Positions 13,905 through 23,093 of a stretch of DNA of 41,938 nt are shown piece by piece (position 1 is the first letter of the stretch; each line of letters begins with the position of its first letter). The translations under genes and the position numbers were made by a program. This DNA is from Candidatus Gottesmanbacteria bacterium RIFCSPHIGHO2_02_FULL_39_14. GTDB lineage: Bacteria; Patescibacteriota; Microgenomatia; 2-02-FULL-39-11. The stretch spans positions 10,327 to 52,264 of the forward strand of contig MFJM01000006.1 in assembly GCA_001779205.1 (NCBI GenBank), written 5' to 3'. Below the pieces are notes generated by a model. It saw only the letters and a program-made list of their open reading frames with translations. It searched no databases and had not been told where the DNA came from.

Positions 13905-14162
13905 AGGAAATTGATAAAGGCGATGATGGCGTAAGGATGGGACGCCGGAGCTGACCCTAATAAGGTACGGAGGCGAAACCGTAAAAGACAGTAACATGTG
14001 TCGCGAAAGCGGAGCATGTCATGAATGAGGTTAACTCATTTCGGATATGTGTCCCCGCGAGGGGACTTTTTAATGGGTTAACGAAATAAGGTGGCACAGC
14101 GAAAGTAATTTCGCCCTTGAATTCCCAGAATATTATTTTCGGGAAAAGGAGGGCGTTTTTTT
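13905..14162 (+). promoter_or_regulatory. T-box leader (probable tRNA-Trp) upstream of trpE
   Basis: T-box AAGGTGGCACAGCG at 14088-14101, antiterminator partner CGCCCTT, then terminator 14112-14161 with T7 tract; bulge UGGC complementary to GCCA (G73). Confidence 0.85.
14112..14161 (+). terminator. T-box regulated terminator
   Basis: CGCCCT...TTCCC...GGGAA...AGGGCG TTTTTTT. Confidence 0.85.
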
Positions 14163-15533
14163 ATGGAAAATATTTTTCAAAATATAAAGCTAGGCTCCTA
14201 TCAAGAGAAGGAAGTGGATTTATCCATTTCCGCTTTCGAAGTATTTAAGCGGCTTTATCCTTATTCGAAAAATATATTTTTGTTGGAATCATTAGGAGAA
14301 GAGGGCAAATACAACCGCTTCTCTTATGTAGGTTATGAACCGGAATGCGTAATTTCAGGTTTAAATGGAGAACTGATTGTTAATAACAGACTATTTAAGA
14401 GCGCAAATCCTTTTGAAAATTTAAAGATTTTTTCCAGATTTAGTAGCGCAGGCCGCGATTTCTGTGGAGGCTTGGTCGGCTATTTTTCTTATGAAGCGGC
14501 TGCCTTTTTTGAGCCTGGTTTTCCGCCAGCTAACAGAGCGGAAAAGCATGAATTTCCGGATTTTCAGTTCGGATTATATTTTGATGGATTGAAGTTCGAT
14601 AAGAGGGGGAAGAGATGTACTTACTTTCATTACGGGAATTCCAGATTAGACCAAATAATGAAAATAATAAATAAAACAAACGGAAATTTGGGACGATTTT
14701 CATATAAAACGATAAAAAATCCGGATGAGAAGGAACACCGATTTAAAGTAGAACATGCCTTGGAAGAAATTAAGAAAGGGAATATTTTTCAAGTGGTTCT
14801 ATCAGAGAGAACTGATTATCAAATCGATGGTGATAACAGGAGAATTTATGCAGTATTACGGCAGGTGAACCCTTCGCCATATATGATCTATCAGAAATTT
14901 GATATGAGGGAGATTATTTCGGCAAGTCCGGAACTACTTATTAGAGTCAAAGGAAGAAAGATTGAACATTTCGGAACACTAGCCGGGACCATAAAAAGGG
15001 GGAAAGACCAGGAAGAAGATGAAAGGTTAAGAGAAAGACTCATTGGCGATGAAAAGGAATTGGCCGAACATTTCATGCTAGTTGATTTAGCCAGAAATGA
15101 TGTCGGTAAGGTGGCCCGCTTCGGGACAATCACGGTAGACAAACTTTCGACAGTCAAGAAATTTTCCAAGGTGCAACATTTATACAGCGAGATAAGAGGA
15201 GAGCTACAAGGGCGGCGGAATTGTTTTGATGCTATTGCTGCCTGTTTTCCGGCGGGGACTTTGACTGGAGCGCCAAAAGTTGAGGCAATGAAGATAATCA
15301 GCAAGCTTGAAGAGATGCGCCGCGGGCCTTACGGAGGAGTAGCTGGATATTTTTCTTTTAACGGAGAGGTGATGCTGGCAATAATTATAAGATCGCTGAT
15401 GATTTGCCGAAATTATGCCTATACGCAAACTGGTAGCGGAATTGTGGTTGATTCTGTTCCAGATCGCGAATTTCAGGAGATAGTCAATAAACAAAATGGA
15501 ATGGATGAGACATTAAGGAGGGCTTCCTTATGA
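14163..15533 (+). CDS. trpE: anthranilate synthase component I
   Basis: LLES motif, 'ISASPELLIRVKG', 'GTLAGTIKRG', 'CFPAGTLTGAPKVEAM', 'GGVAGYFS'. Confidence 0.96.
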   Translation: MENIFQNIKLGSYQEKEVDLSISAFEVFKRLYPYSKNIFLLESLGEEGKYNRFSYVGYEPECVISGLNGELIVNNRLFKSANPFENLKIFSRFSSAGRDFCGGLVGYFSYEAAAFFEPGFPPANRAEKHEFPDFQFGLYFDGLKFDKRGKRCTYFHYGNSRLDQIMKIINKTNGNLGRFSYKTIKNPDEKEHRFKVEHALEEIKKGNIFQVVLSERTDYQIDGDNRRIYAVLRQVNPSPYMIYQKFDMREIISASPELLIRVKGRKIEHFGTLAGTIKRGKDQEEDERLRERLIGDEKELAEHFMLVDLARNDVGKVARFGTITVDKLSTVKKFSKVQHLYSEIRGELQGRRNCFDAIAACFPAGTLTGAPKVEAMKIISKLEEMRRGPYGGVAGYFSFNGEVMLAIIIRSLMICRNYAYTQTGSGIVVDSVPDREFQEIVNKQNGMDETLRRASL

Positions 15534-16105
15534 AAACATTGATAATCAATAATTACGATTCTTTCACTTATAACCTCTATCAGTATTTAGGGGAACTCGG
15601 CGGCAATCCGCAAGTGTTCCGCAATGATGAGATAACTTACACAGAGATAGAAAAGAAAAAATACAGCCATATCGTAATTTCTCCGGGGCCGGGAGATCCA
15701 TCCGATAAGCATTATTTCGGCGTCTGCCGGGAAGTGATATTACGCCCTGATAAAAATATTCCAATATTGGGAGTGTGTCTGGGACATCAGGGAATTATCC
15801 ATTATTACGGGGGCAGGATTGTTAGGGCCGGAAAGATATTACACGGAAAGAAAAGCAAAATTACTCATAACGGGGACGGAATTTTTAAGGAAGTTAAAAG
15901 CCCCCTATTGGGCATGCGCTACCATTCGCTTGTTGGTGAGAAAGAAACGATACCTGATGTTTTGGAAATTACCGCAGAAACGGATGATGGTGTTGTGATG
16001 GGAGTGGCACATAAACAAATACCAATTTTTGGAATTCAGTTTCATCCGGAGTCGGTGGGGACGGAAGACGGGAAAAAAATATTAAAGAATTTTTTAGAGT
16101 TTTGA
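15530..16105 (+). CDS. trpG: anthranilate synthase component II (glutamine amidotransferase)
   Basis: 'NNYDSFTYNLYQYLGELG', 'GVCLGHQGI', 'GIQFHPESVGTEDG'. Confidence 0.96.
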   Translation: MKTLIINNYDSFTYNLYQYLGELGGNPQVFRNDEITYTEIEKKKYSHIVISPGPGDPSDKHYFGVCREVILRPDKNIPILGVCLGHQGIIHYYGGRIVRAGKILHGKKSKITHNGDGIFKEVKSPLLGMRYHSLVGEKETIPDVLEITAETDDGVVMGVAHKQIPIFGIQFHPESVGTEDGKKILKNFLEF

Positions 16106-16138
16106 ACGTATAGTCCCGAATTAATCGGGATCACGTTC
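16104..16138. repeat. trpG-trpD intergenic hairpin
   Basis: GAACGTATAGTCCCGAATTAATCGGGATCACGTTC; arms GAACGT/ACGTTC and TCCCGA/TCGGGA. Confidence 0.75.
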
Positions 16139-16146
16139 TAAAAAAC

Positions 16147-17184
16147 ATGGAAGCACAAGAAATTTTAGAAAAATTAATAAACAGAACAGATTTAACAAAA
16201 CTTCAAAGCACGATACTTGCCGAAATAATTTTCTCCGAGGACGTACAGGCGAGTATAAAAGCGGCACTGTTGACTGCTTTAAGGATGAAAGGGGAGTCTG
16301 TGTCTGAAATTCTGGGATTTATTGAAATCATCAGAAAAGCAATGGTGAAAGTGAAGATAGATGATTTAGCGATTGATACCTGCGGCAACGGTGGAGATAA
16401 CCAGAATACTTTTAATATTTCAACGGCAGCGGCGATTGTGGCAGCAGCCTGCGGGGTGAAAGTGGCCAAACACGGCAACCGCAACATTTCGTCAAAAAGC
16501 GGAAGTGCTGATGTTTTGGAAGCAATGGGAGCAAGAGTTGATTTGACGGCAAAAGAGGTGGAAGACAGCCTTAATTTCTCCAATTTCACTTTTATGTTTG
16601 TGCCTAATTTCCATCCGATTTTCAAAAATATCGGACTTTTGAGGCGTGAGCTTAGAATAAAAACAATTTTCAATTTGCTCGGGCCGCTGGTTAATCCGGC
16701 AGGAGTGAAGCGGCAGATTATCGGCAGCGGAAGCAGGGAGGCGGCGGAAATATTAAGTAAGGTCGTGCAAAGACTTGATAATGAGCATATTCTAGTAGTT
16801 CATTCTTTTGAGGGAATGGATGAGATTAGCATATATGAGCCGACACAAGTATTTGAGATTAGAGGAAATAGAATTAAAAAATTTGTCATAAAACCAGAGG
16901 AATTCGGTTTGAGAGGAAAGGATGCAAACAATATAAGAGTCAATTCCATTGAGGAGAGTAAAGTTAAATTAACAGAGATACTTGAGGGGAGTTTTGGCGA
17001 TGCGAGAAAAATTGTTCTATTTAATTCCGCGGCTGCACTTTATGTTGGAGGACGATGTCGAAGTATTGCCGAAGGAATTAAATTTGCCGAGAAAGCAATA
17101 GACGAAGGACTAGCATATGCAGAACTTAATAAATTCATAGAGTTTAGTAAAAAAGTGAGGATGCAAAATGATCAACATATTTAA
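16147..17184 (+). CDS. trpD: anthranilate phosphoribosyltransferase
   Basis: 'DTCGNGGDNQNTFNISTAAAIVAAACGVKVAKHGNRNISSKSGSADVLEAMG'. Confidence 0.95.
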   Translation: MEAQEILEKLINRTDLTKLQSTILAEIIFSEDVQASIKAALLTALRMKGESVSEILGFIEIIRKAMVKVKIDDLAIDTCGNGGDNQNTFNISTAAAIVAAACGVKVAKHGNRNISSKSGSADVLEAMGARVDLTAKEVEDSLNFSNFTFMFVPNFHPIFKNIGLLRRELRIKTIFNLLGPLVNPAGVKRQIIGSGSREAAEILSKVVQRLDNEHILVVHSFEGMDEISIYEPTQVFEIRGNRIKKFVIKPEEFGLRGKDANNIRVNSIEESKVKLTEILEGSFGDARKIVLFNSAAALYVGGRCRSIAEGIKFAEKAIDEGLAYAELNKFIEFSKKVRMQNDQHI

Positions 17185-17839
17185 AAAAATATTAGAGGTG
17201 AGGAAATTCATTCTTATGGCTGAGATAAAAATAAAATCACCATCGGAAGGAGCATTGGGCGGGATGGAAGAGATGGAGGAAATTGCTAAAGAATATACGG
17301 ATGGGGGAGCGGATATGATTTCGGCAGTGACAGAACAAACGCATTTCGGAGGAGATTTGGGGATGATAGATAGAATAAAAAGAGTGAGCAGTTTGCCGAT
17401 TCTTTGCAAAGATTTTATTTCGGATGAAAGAGAGCTAGTTGATGTTAAAGAGCATGGTGCTGATGCTGTTTTATTATTGGTAATGTATGTATCTAAGGAG
17501 AAGTTAGTAGTGCTTTTTGACAGTGCGTTGAAAATGGGACTTGTTCCAATAGTAGAAGTTGATAACGAAGTTGACCTTAACATGGCAGTAAGAGAAAAAT
17601 TTCCGGTGGTGGCGGTTAATGCCAGGAATTTAAGGGATTTGTCGGTTGACAGAAAAAAGGCAATTTCATTGATTAGAAAAATTCCTCAAAAAGTAATTGC
17701 CCTGGCGTTTTCCGGAGTAAGAGATAAGGAAGATGTGAAAAATTATTTAAAAGCCGGAGCAAAGGGAGTGCTTATCGGGACAGTGCTAATGCGGGCAAAG
17801 GATAAGGTTTCGATGTTAAAGGAGTTGAGGGGTGTATGA
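17168..17839 (+). CDS. trpC: indole-3-glycerol-phosphate synthase, short form
   Basis: 'LMAEIKIKSPSEG', 'LCKDFI', 'VPIVEVDN', 'VAVNARNL', 'GVLIGTVLM'; lacks N-terminal extension. Confidence 0.9.
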   Translation: MINIFKKILEVRKFILMAEIKIKSPSEGALGGMEEMEEIAKEYTDGGADMISAVTEQTHFGGDLGMIDRIKRVSSLPILCKDFISDERELVDVKEHGADAVLLLVMYVSKEKLVVLFDSALKMGLVPIVEVDNEVDLNMAVREKFPVVAVNARNLRDLSVDRKKAISLIRKIPQKVIALAFSGVRDKEDVKNYLKAGAKGVLIGTVLMRAKDKVSMLKELRGV

Positions 17840-18453
17840 AGACATTGATTAAGATTTGCGGAATAAAGGATTTGGCGGAGGCCGGAATGGCAATTAAGAA
17901 TGGGGCTGATATTCTGGGATTTAATCTTGTTAAGACTTCAAAGCGATACATTGAGCCAAAAGTGGCTAAAAATATAATCAAAAAAATAGACAGGAGGAAA
18001 GTAGAGATTGCGGGTGTGTTTCAGAATGAAGAGAAGGAGAAAGACATTGAAATAACTGATTTTTTAAAATTGGATTTAGTTCAGTTACATGGAGAAGAAG
18101 AGCCAGAAATATACAGGAGGTTAAAGACAAAAATAATTAAAGTTTTTCCGGTGGAAAGAGACTTTGATGTGGATAAACTTTTATTAGAAATGAAACAAAG
18201 TAAAGCAGATTTTTATCTTTTAGACAGGAGAAATCAGGGGAGCGGGGAAAGAATTGATGTGGAAAAGGCGAGAAGAGTTGCAGAGAAATTTTCATTATTT
18301 TTGGCCGGAGGATTAAATCCCGAAAATGTCAAAAAGGTTGTCGAGAAAGTTAAGCCGTATGCAGTTGATGTGGCTTCGGGGGTGGAAAGCGGCGGGCGAA
18401 AAGACATGCTAAAAATTCAAAAATTTATCAGAATGGTCAGATCAATATCATGA
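17836..18453 (+). CDS. trpF: phosphoribosylanthranilate isomerase
   Basis: 'IKICGIKDLAEA', 'VQLHGEE', 'LAGGLNPENV', 'VDVASGVES'. Confidence 0.94.
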   Translation: MKTLIKICGIKDLAEAGMAIKNGADILGFNLVKTSKRYIEPKVAKNIIKKIDRRKVEIAGVFQNEEKEKDIEITDFLKLDLVQLHGEEEPEIYRRLKTKIIKVFPVERDFDVDKLLLEMKQSKADFYLLDRRNQGSGERIDVEKARRVAEKFSLFLAGGLNPENVKKVVEKVKPYAVDVASGVESGGRKDMLKIQKFIRMVRSIS

Positions 18454-19631
18454 GAAAGATCGATACAAAAGTAAAAAACGGTTATTTCGGTAAATTCGGA
18501 GGGCAGTTTGTGACAGAATTGCTTTATTCGGCATTGGAAGAGCTGGGAGAAGTATTTACGAAAATTAAGGAAGACCGTGAATTTCTTAAAACTTATATAA
18601 GCTTAGTGGAGGATTACGCGGGCAGGCCGACGCCTTTGTATTCAGCGGAAAATATTTCCAGGATAGTCGGCTCGCGAGTTTATTTTAAACGGGAAGATTT
18701 GCTAAATGGAGGGTCCCACAAACTTAATAATTCATTAGGCCAGGCATTAATGGTGAAATTTTTAGGAAAGAAGGAAATTGTTACTGAAACGGCGGCAGGG
18801 ATGAACGGAGTGGCGACAGCAATGGCGGCAACTGTGGCGGGATTAAAATGTAAAGTTTTTATGGGAGTCAAGGATATTGAGAGACAGAGATTGAATGCTG
18901 ATAAAATAAAACTTTTAGGTGCGGAAGTAGTTCCGGTCGAAAGAGGTTTTGGAGTCTTGAAAGATGCTGTGTCGGAAGCGCTTGTTTATTGGATTAGGAA
19001 TCTGACAACATGCCATTACCTGATCGGATCGACGGTCGGTCCACATCCATTTCCTTCAATTGTTGCTTTTTTCCAAAAGATAATCGGTGATGAGGCAAGG
19101 CGGCAGATTTTTGAGAAAGAAGGAAAGTTGCCTAGCCATATTATAGCCTGCGGTTCAGGCGGGAGTAATGCTATGGGAATTTTTCAAGCATTTATCGATG
19201 ATCCGGTAGAATTGATTTTTGTTGAAGGGGCGGAGTCGGCGGCATTAACAAAGGGTACGGTCGGAATATTTCAGGGAACAAAAACTTATGTTTTACAGGA
19301 TGAGTTTGGGATGGACAGAAAGACGGAGAGCAGGGCAGCGGGACTTAATTATCCGGGAAGAAGTCCGCAGATTGCCTATCTTTATTCTATCAGAAGAATA
19401 AAAGCGGAAACTGCAACTGACCAGGAGGTAATTGAGGCATTTTATAAAACGACAAAACTAGAAGGACTAATGCCGGCTTTTGAAACCTGTCATGCAATGG
19501 CATATTTATTCAGAAGTAAGGGAAAATTCCGAAAAAAAGATATTGTGCTTTTGAATTTTTCAGGAAGAGGAGATAAGGATATGGCAGCTGCGCTGCAAGG
19601 CAGAAAGTTCATAAAGTTTATAAAGTTATGA
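18450..19631 (+). CDS. trpB: tryptophan synthase beta chain (divergent)
   Basis: 'GKFGGQFVTELL', 'FKREDLLNGGSHKLNNSLGQAL', 'GSGGSNAMG', 'FSGRGDKDM'. Confidence 0.93.
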   Translation: MRKIDTKVKNGYFGKFGGQFVTELLYSALEELGEVFTKIKEDREFLKTYISLVEDYAGRPTPLYSAENISRIVGSRVYFKREDLLNGGSHKLNNSLGQALMVKFLGKKEIVTETAAGMNGVATAMAATVAGLKCKVFMGVKDIERQRLNADKIKLLGAEVVPVERGFGVLKDAVSEALVYWIRNLTTCHYLIGSTVGPHPFPSIVAFFQKIIGDEARRQIFEKEGKLPSHIIACGSGGSNAMGIFQAFIDDPVELIFVEGAESAALTKGTVGIFQGTKTYVLQDEFGMDRKTESRAAGLNYPGRSPQIAYLYSIRRIKAETATDQEVIEAFYKTTKLEGLMPAFETCHAMAYLFRSKGKFRKKDIVLLNFSGRGDKDMAAALQGRKFIKFIKL

Positions 19632-20398
19632 ATATTAAGAAAATATTAATGACGCATTTTTATTACGGGGATGTAAGTCCGGAATTTTCGGAAGATTTGG
19701 CTATGAGACTTATTAGTTCCGGGTCGGATATTCTGGAAATAGGAATTCCATATAGCGACCCGGTTTGCGACGGACCTGTTTTTCAAAAGTCATGCAGGCA
19801 GGCACTTGAGAATGGTATTACTCCTATGACAGTTTTAGCAGGAATAAAAAAAATCAGAGAAAAAACAATTAAACCAATATACTTAACAAGCTACTTTGGT
19901 CCTGTTTTCAAGTTGGGGGTGGAGAGATTTTTGAAAATGGCAGATGATACGGGAGTAAATGGACTAATAATTCCTGATTTGCCATTGGAGGAGCAAGAGA
20001 ATTTTTCAGATATTTTTAACAAATACAATTTGTCTATAATCCAATTTGCAACTGTTTATTCAGACCAAGGGCGGCTGGAGAAAATAATTAATAAATCCAA
20101 TGATTTTATTTACGGCATTTCTCATTCAGGGGTAACAGGGGATAGAGGCAATGAAAGGGAGATTCAAGATTTGATAGTTAAAATTAAAAACTTAACCGAT
20201 AAAAAAATATATTGCGGATTCGGGATCAAAACGGCAATGGATGCTAAGAAGATTATTGATTTAGGCGCAGACGGAGTAATTGTAGGAAGTGCGATTGCCG
20301 AGATTTATCAAAATAGTAAAGACCCGCAGAAAAGTTTAGAAGAAATTGAAGATTTAGTTAGAAATATTCAAAAAAAAGTTAAACTGATTATAATGTAA
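19628..20398 (+). CDS. trpA: tryptophan synthase alpha chain
   Basis: 'ILEIGIPYSDPVCDGPVFQ', 'GLIIPDLPLEEQ', 'SHSGVTGDRG', 'GFGIKT'. Confidence 0.93.
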   Translation: MNIKKILMTHFYYGDVSPEFSEDLAMRLISSGSDILEIGIPYSDPVCDGPVFQKSCRQALENGITPMTVLAGIKKIREKTIKPIYLTSYFGPVFKLGVERFLKMADDTGVNGLIIPDLPLEEQENFSDIFNKYNLSIIQFATVYSDQGRLEKIINKSNDFIYGISHSGVTGDRGNEREIQDLIVKIKNLTDKKIYCGFGIKTAMDAKKIIDLGADGVIVGSAIAEIYQNSKDPQKSLEEIEDLVRNIQKKVKLIIM

Positions 20399-20412: not shown

Positions 20413-21927
20413 ATGGATGAAGCAGTTAAAAAATATCTTAATGAGTTAAAAGAGCTGGGGATAGAATACCAGATTTTGGAGCATCCCCAGCTTATTTCCG
20501 TGGAGAAAGTCCAGGAATATCTGGGGTACAGAATGGATGATGCCGGAGCGACACTACTGATGAAAACGGATGATAAGTTTGTAGCCATTATAAAGAGGGG
20601 CGATACTAAACTGGATAATGAAAAAATAAAGAAATATTTGGGAGTAAAAAACTTGAGGATGGCAACGGAGGAGGAATTCGAGAAGATTACACATGTACCG
20701 AGCGGAGCAGCAACGGTTTTTATTAAGGGAGTACCAATATATCTTGATAAAAAGATATTGGAGAAAGAGTATATCAATGCAGGAAGCGGGAGTTTACTGA
20801 TTACACTGCGGTATAAAACAGACGATTTTAAAAAAATCCCAGGGATTAAAATCGTTGATTTTACAAAAATTGAAACTGATAAAGAAGATTTAGGGAAAGT
20901 TATTAAAGGAGGAAAAAGAATTCTTTCCGGTATTACACCGTCGGGTGATGGAAGTCTTCACATAGGTAATTATTTGGGGGCGGTGAGGCAGTTTAAAGAA
21001 CTGGCGAAGAATAATGAGTGTTTCTTGTTTGTGGCTGATATTCATGCGTTAACGACAGTTCAGAGTAGAGAAGAATTACAGAAGAATATTGAGATTTTGA
21101 TTATAAATGAATTGGCTCTGTTGGGTGAATTGTCAAATATCACTTTTTTCAGACAATCGGATGTTCCTATGCATACGGAATTACAGTCAATACTCAATAA
21201 TGTGACACCATTGGGATTGATAAAAAGGGCTCATGCTTATAAGGATAAACTGCAGAAGGGGTTAACCGAGGAAGAGATGAACATGGGACTTTTTTGTTAT
21301 CCGATTCTGATGGCGGCGGATATATTAATTTATAAACCGGATATTGTTCCTGTGGGACAGGATCAGAAGCAGCATTTGGAGATAACCAGGGATATTGCCG
21401 AAAATTTTAATAAAACCTACAGAAAGAAAGTTTTTCCATTACCAGAATCACATATTCCCAAAGAAGTAGCAGTTATTATGGGAACAGATGGGAAGAGGAA
21501 GATGAGCAAATCGTTGGGGAATATTATCAGTATATTTGATGACGAAGCGATTATTAAAAAACAGGTAATGTCGACTTATACCGATCCGACCAGAAAACAC
21601 GCAATAGATCCTGGGCATATTGAGGGGAACATGGTATTTACATATTTGGACTTCTTCGGAAAAAAGAAAAGAGTTGAAGAGTTGAAAAGTTTATATCGAG
21701 TGGGGAAAGTGGGGGATGTAGAGGTAAAAAATTTTCTGTTAAAGACATTGATTAAATATTTTGCTCCGGCACGAGAGAGATACCAAGAGTTAAAATCCAA
21801 TCCGCAAAAGGTGAGAAAAATCCTCATGGAGGGGTCGGAGAGAGCCAGGGAAGTGGCAAGCACAACAATGGTGGAAGTCAGGGAAGCTGTGGGGTTGACT
21901 AATAAATACTCTTTCTTCGAATATTAA
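20413..21927 (+). CDS. trpS: N-terminal YbaK/ProX-like aminoacyl-tRNA editing domain fused to tryptophanyl-tRNA synthetase
   Basis: N-term (about 155 aa) 'YQILEHPQLISVEKVQEYLG...ATLLMKTDDKFVAIIKRGDTKLD...VPSGAATVFIKGVPIYLDKKI' then TrpRS 'SGITPSGDGSLHIGNYLGAVRQF' and 'KRKMSKSLGN'; one uninterrupted frame. Confidence 0.9.
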   Translation: MDEAVKKYLNELKELGIEYQILEHPQLISVEKVQEYLGYRMDDAGATLLMKTDDKFVAIIKRGDTKLDNEKIKKYLGVKNLRMATEEEFEKITHVPSGAATVFIKGVPIYLDKKILEKEYINAGSGSLLITLRYKTDDFKKIPGIKIVDFTKIETDKEDLGKVIKGGKRILSGITPSGDGSLHIGNYLGAVRQFKELAKNNECFLFVADIHALTTVQSREELQKNIEILIINELALLGELSNITFFRQSDVPMHTELQSILNNVTPLGLIKRAHAYKDKLQKGLTEEEMNMGLFCYPILMAADILIYKPDIVPVGQDQKQHLEITRDIAENFNKTYRKKVFPLPESHIPKEVAVIMGTDGKRKMSKSLGNIISIFDDEAIIKKQVMSTYTDPTRKHAIDPGHIEGNMVFTYLDFFGKKKRVEELKSLYRVGKVGDVEVKNFLLKTLIKYFAPARERYQELKSNPQKVRKILMEGSERAREVASTTMVEVREAVGLTNKYSFFEY

Positions 21928-22010: not shown

Positions 22011-22301
22011 ATGGATACAAATATTGTCAGTACAACTGAATTGCAGAGAAATATTAAATCTGTTTTGGACAAACTCAACGATAATAATGAACCTCTGATT
22101 GTAGTGCGGGATAGTAAACCTAAGGCTGTTATGATGCCATATAGTGAATATAAAAGGTTGTCTAGCTTGGAAAAAGAAGTAATTAGGCTGCAGATGGAAA
22201 AAGTATGGGAAAAAATGAGGATTATAAATAAAAATGTATCAGATAAAGAACTTAATAAAGATATTGAAGAAGCGATAAAGTATGCCAAGAATGGTCGTTG
22301 A
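22011..22301 (+). CDS. Phd/YefM-family antitoxin
   Basis: 'NIVSTTELQRNIKSVLDKLNDNNEPLIVVRDSKPKAVMMPYSEYKRL'. Confidence 0.85.
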   Translation: MDTNIVSTTELQRNIKSVLDKLNDNNEPLIVVRDSKPKAVMMPYSEYKRLSSLEKEVIRLQMEKVWEKMRIINKNVSDKELNKDIEEAIKYAKNGR

Positions 22302-22707
22302 CACGAATGTTTTGATACGAGCACTTCTTAAACCCGATAGCAGTGACGGATTAGTAATAAGGAGAGCAGTTGAGGGTAAACTAGATTTATTTTTCAGTCT
22401 AAAACTAATTACAGAATTAAAAAGGACGCTTACTTATAAAAGGATAAGAAAGCGGGCGGTTACTAATGATGATGTTAAGATATTTCTGAAAACTCTTCTA
22501 ACATTTGGTAATATTACTTCCATAACAGAAAAAATTAATTTATGCCGGGATCCTGATGATAACGAACTGTTATCAATCGCAGTTTCAATTTATAAAGATA
22601 GTCCTGTATATTTAGTTACTGCTGATAAAGATTTACTGGTATTAAAGGGGAAAATAGAAAAAGTAATGATTGTTACACCCCAGGAATTTTTGAGGCTGAG
22701 GAAGTAA
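22282..22707 (+). CDS. PIN-domain toxin (COG1569-like)
   Basis: 'MVVDTNVLIRALLKPDSSDG...CRDPDDNELLSIAV...YLVTADKDLL'. Confidence 0.85.
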   Translation: MPRMVVDTNVLIRALLKPDSSDGLVIRRAVEGKLDLFFSLKLITELKRTLTYKRIRKRAVTNDDVKIFLKTLLTFGNITSITEKINLCRDPDDNELLSIAVSIYKDSPVYLVTADKDLLVLKGKIEKVMIVTPQEFLRLRK

Positions 22708-22754: not shown

Positions 22755-23093
22755 ATGAAAAAGGATGAAATCAGTTTGTCTGACTTCCAGAAGATGGATT
22801 TAAGAGTAGGGAAAGTGATTAGTGCTTCCGCGATCGAAGGATCAATTAACCTTCTTCGACTTAAAGTGGACTTGGGCTACGATTACGGAGTTAGGCAAAT
22901 TATTTCGGGTATTGCCCGATGGTACAAACCTGAAAAATTACGGGGCAAAAAATTCATATTTTTGGCAAATTTGGAGGGGAAGAAACTGATGGGAAATAAG
23001 AGTGCGGGAATGATTTTATGCGCTGATGAGAACCACTCTGCATTTATAATTCCCGTTGATAATAAAATTCCCGAAGGAACGTTAATCAGGTAA
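22755..23093 (+). CDS. stand-alone tRNA-binding OB-fold protein (MetG C-terminal/Trbp111-like)
   Basis: 'FQKMDLRVGKVISASAIEGS...VRQIISGIARWYKPEKLRGKKFIFLANL...NKSAGMILCA'. Confidence 0.85.
   Translation: MKKDEISLSDFQKMDLRVGKVISASAIEGSINLLRLKVDLGYDYGVRQIISGIARWYKPEKLRGKKFIFLANLEGKKLMGNKSAGMILCADENHSAFIIPVDNKIPEGTLIR

Follow-up and report, generated by a model that had tools for sequence, protein, structure and literature searches.

The window, that is, the whole stretch of 41,938 nucleotides that was analyzed, carries a complete trpEGDCFBA operon closed by a trpS gene (20413..21927, + strand) whose 504-aa product joins an INS-type domain to a tryptophanyl-tRNA synthetase (TrpRS). The seven upstream genes, trpE, trpG, trpD, trpC, trpF, trpB and trpA in this order, occupy 14163..20398 on the same strand and were identified from their ORFs and from homologous trp operons in related genomes. 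The trpS gene begins 14 bp after trpA, and a Shine-Dalgarno-like AAAGGA precedes its ATG. Directly before trpE, at 13914..14121 (+), the covariance model RF00230 matched a T-box leader over its full length (49.5 bits, E = 1e-8); we call this leader divergent because its score lies under the Rfam gathering score of 93. An earlier sequence-only reading of this DNA had described the fusion as the last gene of a trp operon with a T-box, and this placement was borne out. The fusion is the sole TrpRS of the window genome, a second, weak TrpRS match falling under the cut-off.

Downstream of trpS, a separate gene (22755..23093, +) encodes a Trbp111-like tRNA_bind domain (PF01588, E = 6e-24), the same domain that is fused C-terminally to TrpRS in family f12 and in genome G281. 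A PhdYefM-type antitoxin and PIN-domain toxin pair (22011-22707) is inserted between the two genes, and a different toxin-antitoxin-like pair of small genes lies downstream of trpS in genome G199.

Three segments make up the fusion protein: an N-terminal INS/YbaK-type domain (residues 1-155; 20413..20877, +), a linker predicted to be disordered (residues 156-165; 20878..20907, +; pLDDT below 50 in AlphaFold2) and a TrpRS body (residues 166-504; 20908..21924, +). In Pfam searches, PF04073 (tRNA_edit) matched residues 24-141 (E = 3e-22; 79 bits, cut-off 25.5) and PF00579 residues 169-450 (E = 2e-59), and the NCBIfam model of bacterial trpS, TIGR00233, matched residues 168-495 (286 bits, cut-off 177). 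In the translation, the HIGN motif lies at residues 183-186 (20959..20970, +) and the KMSKS motif at residues 363-367 (21499..21513, +), with K363, M364 and K366 invariant in 39 sequences. These matches confirm the initial description of a YbaK-like domain joined in frame to a full TrpRS. The domain is not YbaK proper, since the fusion scores 31 bits against the 153-bit cut-off of TIGR00011, the NCBIfam model for the YbaK Cys-tRNA-Pro deacylase. AlphaFold2 modelled the fusion as two confident domains (mean pLDDT 89.9), and the N-terminal domain modelled alone reached a pLDDT of 93.6. Using Foldseek, this domain was matched to H. influenzae YbaK (TM 0.82/0.84), to T. thermophilus ProX (TM 0.86) and to ProRS INS domains, with TM values of 0.82-0.87 in the test for a YbaK-like fold, and the TrpRS body resembled C. 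jejuni TrpRS 3tzl (TMt 0.93). In the predicted structure, the TrpRS-fused domain retains the YbaK-type fold.

Loss of the catalytic lysine in TrpRS-fused domains

In the INS superfamily, the catalytic lysine is strictly conserved, and its replacement by alanine dramatically impairs deacylation in every member tested (PMC10164551). All characterized members rely on this lysine together with the GXXXP loop (PMC11286415). We fixed the numbering with YbaK and ProRS of E. coli MG1655, whose residues K46 and K279 fall in one alignment column, shared with K45 of ProXp-ala. In the window domain, this column holds Ala46 (codon 20548..20550, +), and ungapped HMMER alignments to S. aureus ProRS and L. 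pneumophila lpg1207 concur. A residue survey was performed on 65 PF04073 domains from the study genomes and E. coli, 31 of them fused to TrpRS and 34 not. Lysine was found in the catalytic column of none of the 31 TrpRS-fused copies (14 alanines, 11 serines, 4 prolines and 2 valines) versus all 34 of the others, namely 18/18 free-standing or otherwise placed domains, 11/11 AspRS-fused domains and 5/5 ProRS INS domains. Lysine was likewise present in all additional copies, which were taken from the phylum and from f5, a family described below, except for a free-standing protein of the TrpRS-type subfamily in genome G019.

At the GXXXP position, the window domain has the loop G98-AAT-V102 (20704..20718, +), from which the proline is missing; proline was present in 5/31 TrpRS-fused copies versus 29/34 others, and the glycine was universal. 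As judged from these alignments, the window domain has neither the catalytic lysine nor the GXXXP loop of an active deacylase. The sequence-only reading had suggested that misacylated tRNA might be cleared here, and had named missing catalytic residues in the editing domain as evidence to the contrary. With Ala46 and a GAATV loop in the window, and with the superfamily lysine absent in 31/31 TrpRS-fused copies, editing by the usual chemistry is not supported.

A lysine that does remain, Lys51 (codon 20563..20565, +), aligns with K50 of C. crescentus ProXp-ala, which contributes to acceptor-stem recognition (PMC10164551). It lies five residues past Ala46, as K50 does past K45, and the position holds lysine in 26/31 TrpRS-fused copies. 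We considered K51 as the catalytic lysine and rejected this assignment, since placing E. coli YbaK K46 and ProRS K279 puts the catalytic column at residue 46. Near-invariant residues in the fused set are R62, D64, K73, G98, D112, G126 and D138. Compared with the INS deacylases YbaK and ProX, the window domain belongs to the same Pfam family (PF04073), has the same predicted fold (TM 0.8-0.9) and conserves K51, G98 and D112; unlike them, TrpRS-fused domains lack the universal catalytic lysine and mostly the GXXXP proline. Furthermore, INS members have been described as single-domain proteins save for the ProRS fusions (PMC11295145), whereas the window domain sits on a class I synthetase.

The domain is nonetheless under purifying selection. 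Comparison with a same-genus homologue gave dN/dS values of 0.063 for the editing-family domain and 0.079 for TrpRS, which are rough as dS exceeds 1, and 18 positions are invariant across 16 divergent copies. Taken together, the low ratio and the invariant residues indicate that the domain does something, though not via the usual residue. We also rejected the idea that it is unusually basic, its median pI being 7.7.

Distribution and evolution of the fusion

The search for the fusion covered Patescibacteria, which are very small bacteria. In the class, at least 23 of 280 genomes, from ten families, were found to encode it, and a sample of 380 genomes from the phylum added five fused genomes outside the class. 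Named assemblies were scanned with a profile of five closer editing domains, a 16-domain profile being too divergent, and the closest fused domains came from Candidatus Gottesmanbacteria, followed by Roizmanbacteria, Shapirobacteria and other Microgenomates. The window genome itself was placed in the Gottesmanbacteria family (Microgenomates, Patescibacteria), in one genus with G506, which also carries the fusion. Because the fusion recurs in independently named assemblies and in at least 23/280 class genomes, an assembly artefact was rejected. The sequence-only reading knew of no characterized example and had allowed that the fusion might prove widespread and already characterized. It is indeed fairly widespread in Patescibacteria; among open-licence papers, we found neither a characterized PF04073-TrpRS fusion nor any published description of an INS-domain/TrpRS fusion.

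Several variants of the architecture were encountered. The TrpRSs of G486 and G443 carry tandem editing domains, the second copy lacking the K51 position in both proteins, and those of G281, G481, G462, G520 and G432 combine an INS domain and TrpRS with a C-terminal tRNA_bind domain. In G057 (L039:2663-4912), a triple fusion of INS, B3/4 and TrpRS (749 aa) is encoded between trpG and trpD of a trp operon. The closest PDB relative of its extra B3/4 domain is CtdA, a B3/4 canavanyl-tRNA deacylase (PMC10018355); CtdA differs in being free-standing and in acting on tRNA-Arg, and the window protein has no B3/4 domain. The free-standing TrpRS-type copy in G019 has its own ribosome-binding site and unrelated neighbours, in a genome whose TrpRS is plain, and led us to reject the view that the module is confined to fusions. 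With this exception, the TrpRS-type module was found only on TrpRS among the about 100 domains examined.

On a tree of 77 TrpRS bodies, fused and plain forms are scattered: the label changes 20 times, at least 11 of these changes being forced by well-supported branches, and a single inherited clade of fused TrpRSs was rejected (AU test, p = 6e-8). The fused domains themselves are compatible with a single clade (AU p = 0.59 and 0.63), which is not proof of a single origin. Domain trees placed them near the ProRS INS domains and apart from the YbaK/AspRS side, their order relative to ProRS INS domains and f5 proteins not being settled by these trees. The domain groups cut across TrpRS clades, which suggests recurrent loss, combined with exchange of the 5' part of trpS or with transfer. 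On this reading, TrpRSs of Patescibacteria have gained, exchanged or lost the module on many occasions. Adaptation of the TrpRS body to the domain was also considered and rejected, as no body residue outside the junction tracked the domain in a clade of 29 TrpRSs.

A link between the fusion and tryptophan synthesis, proposed from the window alone, did not hold in the wider set. trpA scored above the cut-off in 22 of the 280 class genomes; five of these 22 are fused, and all five come from the window's own family. Another 18 fused genomes are among the about 258 class genomes without trpA, some of them incomplete (several genomes are 60-90% complete, which makes absences of trpA or of a ProRS INS domain soft). 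Within the window's family, a plain trpS likewise follows trpA in G406, G468, G496 and G516. With 18/23 fused genomes lacking trpA and both fused and plain trpS ending the same operon in one family, the link was rejected. A trpB-like gene without trpA adjoins trpS, fused or plain, at L091, L097, L100, L085, L111 and L112, which suggests indole salvage.

Intact members of the superfamily also occur in these bacteria. In family f5 (L167-L175; for example L172:880-1338), the gene of a free-standing INS-type protein that retains the lysine and has a GAVCP loop lies 0.05-3.4 kb upstream of a plain trpS, both genes being on one strand, an arrangement seen in 8/8 genomes with both genes on the contig. 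This neighbour is the strongest indication that INS proteins with activity may act on TrpRS products in the class. The window genome, too, encodes a free-standing PF04073 protein with an intact lysine.

Editing modules were seen on other synthetases as well. AspRS with a C-terminal YbaK-type domain is found in many Patescibacteria (L128:25-1905, L184:34-1932, L130, L131, L135, L138 and L144); this domain keeps both the lysine and GXXXP and looks catalytically intact, and our literature search found no description of an AspRS-YbaK-type fusion. In G039, a relative of G057, a B3/4 editing domain is fused to TyrRS (L181:1288-3285), and LysRS is combined with B3/4 and a weak HD domain (L179:1-2784). 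An apparent NUDIX-type hydrolase is joined to a YbaK-type domain with an intact lysine in G281 (L137:463-1887), as read from its sequence.

Candidate functions of the fused domain

TrpRS is usually counted among the synthetases that do not need proofreading. Given that the lysine needed by the editing family is always lost, the fused domain most likely holds tRNA instead of correcting errors. We favor, with a probability of about one half, a housekeeping TrpRS whose lysine-less INS domain is a pseudo-editing module dedicated to this synthetase. The domain most likely performs no deacylation and acts as a removable accessory: by binding the acceptor end of tRNA-Trp, it would assist charging or the handling of the product. 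The INS fold and its acceptor-stem side (K51) would have been retained, and loss of the hydrolysis lysine would leave the domain silent as a deacylase. The tRNA_bind domains fused to or lying beside the same TrpRSs are consistent with such a role.

A comparable arrangement is known from Plasmodium TrpRS, where an AlaX-like domain without catalytic residues is yet required for tRNA binding and charging (PMC3680381). In both enzymes, a linker connects TrpRS to an N-terminal domain of an editing family from which catalytic residues are missing (PMC3680381). However, AlaX represents another editing family, and the Plasmodium protein is a eukaryotic TrpRS with a long linker and an independent origin. 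Homology of the window domain to AlaX of apicomplexan AXD-TrpRS was not found, as it belongs to PF04073 and has a predicted YbaK fold, and the likeness is one of kind only. ProRSs of Plasmodium and Trypanosoma likewise bear an INS domain, ProXp-ala, at their N-terminus (PMC11286415), but this domain is active on Ala-tRNA-Pro, keeps its lysine and sits on a class II synthetase.

Several observations speak against the accessory role. The domain is not unusually basic, and many close relatives charge tRNA-Trp without it. The K45A substitution in ProXp-ala also weakens RNA binding (PMC10164551), so that loss of the lysine could equally lower tRNA binding. Moreover, relatives carry tandem copies or an additional B3/4 domain, which could indicate a continuing need for hydrolysis.

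These last features lead to the main rival, which we consider unlikely: an active proofreader that works without lysine, for instance with help from the 2'-OH of A76, and that would clear mischarged tRNA-Trp, perhaps charged with a tryptophan analogue. In the superfamily, the main role of the lysine is to position the CCA end, and catalysis involves the 2'-OH of A76 (PMC10164551); the fused domains conserve the fold, glycine G98 of the loop, D112 and G126. The tandem domains, the CtdA-related B3/4 domain of the triple fusion and the intact INS protein upstream of trpS in all eight testable f5 genomes would also fit. Against this stand the dramatic effect of the lysine-to-alanine exchange in all members tested (PMC10164551), the statement that mischarging of tRNA-Trp by TrpRS has not been reported (PMC3680381), the loss of most GXXXP prolines and the additional loss of K51 in the second tandem copies. 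That the fused domains would constitute a new TrpRS-dedicated INS subfamily proofreading tRNA-Trp without lysine appears rather improbable.

The domain could instead be a regulatory or protective module that binds an amino acid, a nucleotide or an inhibitor, or that protects TrpRS or tRNA-Trp against an inhibitor or nuclease, and we regard this as doubtful. Its patchy, swap-prone spread and the free-standing G019 copy amid unrelated genes would suit such a module. Foldseek also matched SadB, a c-di-GMP-binding regulator whose N-terminal domain is YbaK-like (PMC6543031), and structures with indolmycin and chuangxinmycin, both of which target TrpRS, were among the PDB matches of the TrpRS body. 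However, these cells have no known ligand, inhibitor or toxin, the TrpRS body shows no adaptation and, beyond one family, the domain has no link to the trp operon or its T-box.

A tolerated passenger without benefit would account for the patchy presence and for a TrpRS body that does not track the domain, but is very hard to reconcile with a dN/dS of about 0.06 and with 18 residues that do not vary among 16 divergent copies. Least probable of all is editing in trans for another synthetase, for example on tRNA-Pro with TrpRS as a mere carrier: the fused domains are nearest to ProRS INS domains and no ProRS INS was found in the incomplete window genome, but the catalytic lysine is lost all the same, several fused genomes also have PF04073 in ProRS-length frames, the window genome has its free-standing intact-lysine protein and the module keeps almost exclusively to TrpRS.

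If the fused domain did edit without lysine, it would represent the first TrpRS editing and a second chemistry for the INS superfamily; AspRS, TyrRS and LysRS also bear editing modules in this lineage. Patescibacteria thereby place such modules on synthetases that had none described in the literature we searched. The module described here is conserved, comes from an editing superfamily whose catalytic lysine it lacks, occurs almost only on TrpRS and appears to have been attached, swapped or lost many times. Its fused, plain, tandem and free-standing forms, together with the intact-lysine neighbour, provide a natural set for asking how an editing fold gets reused.
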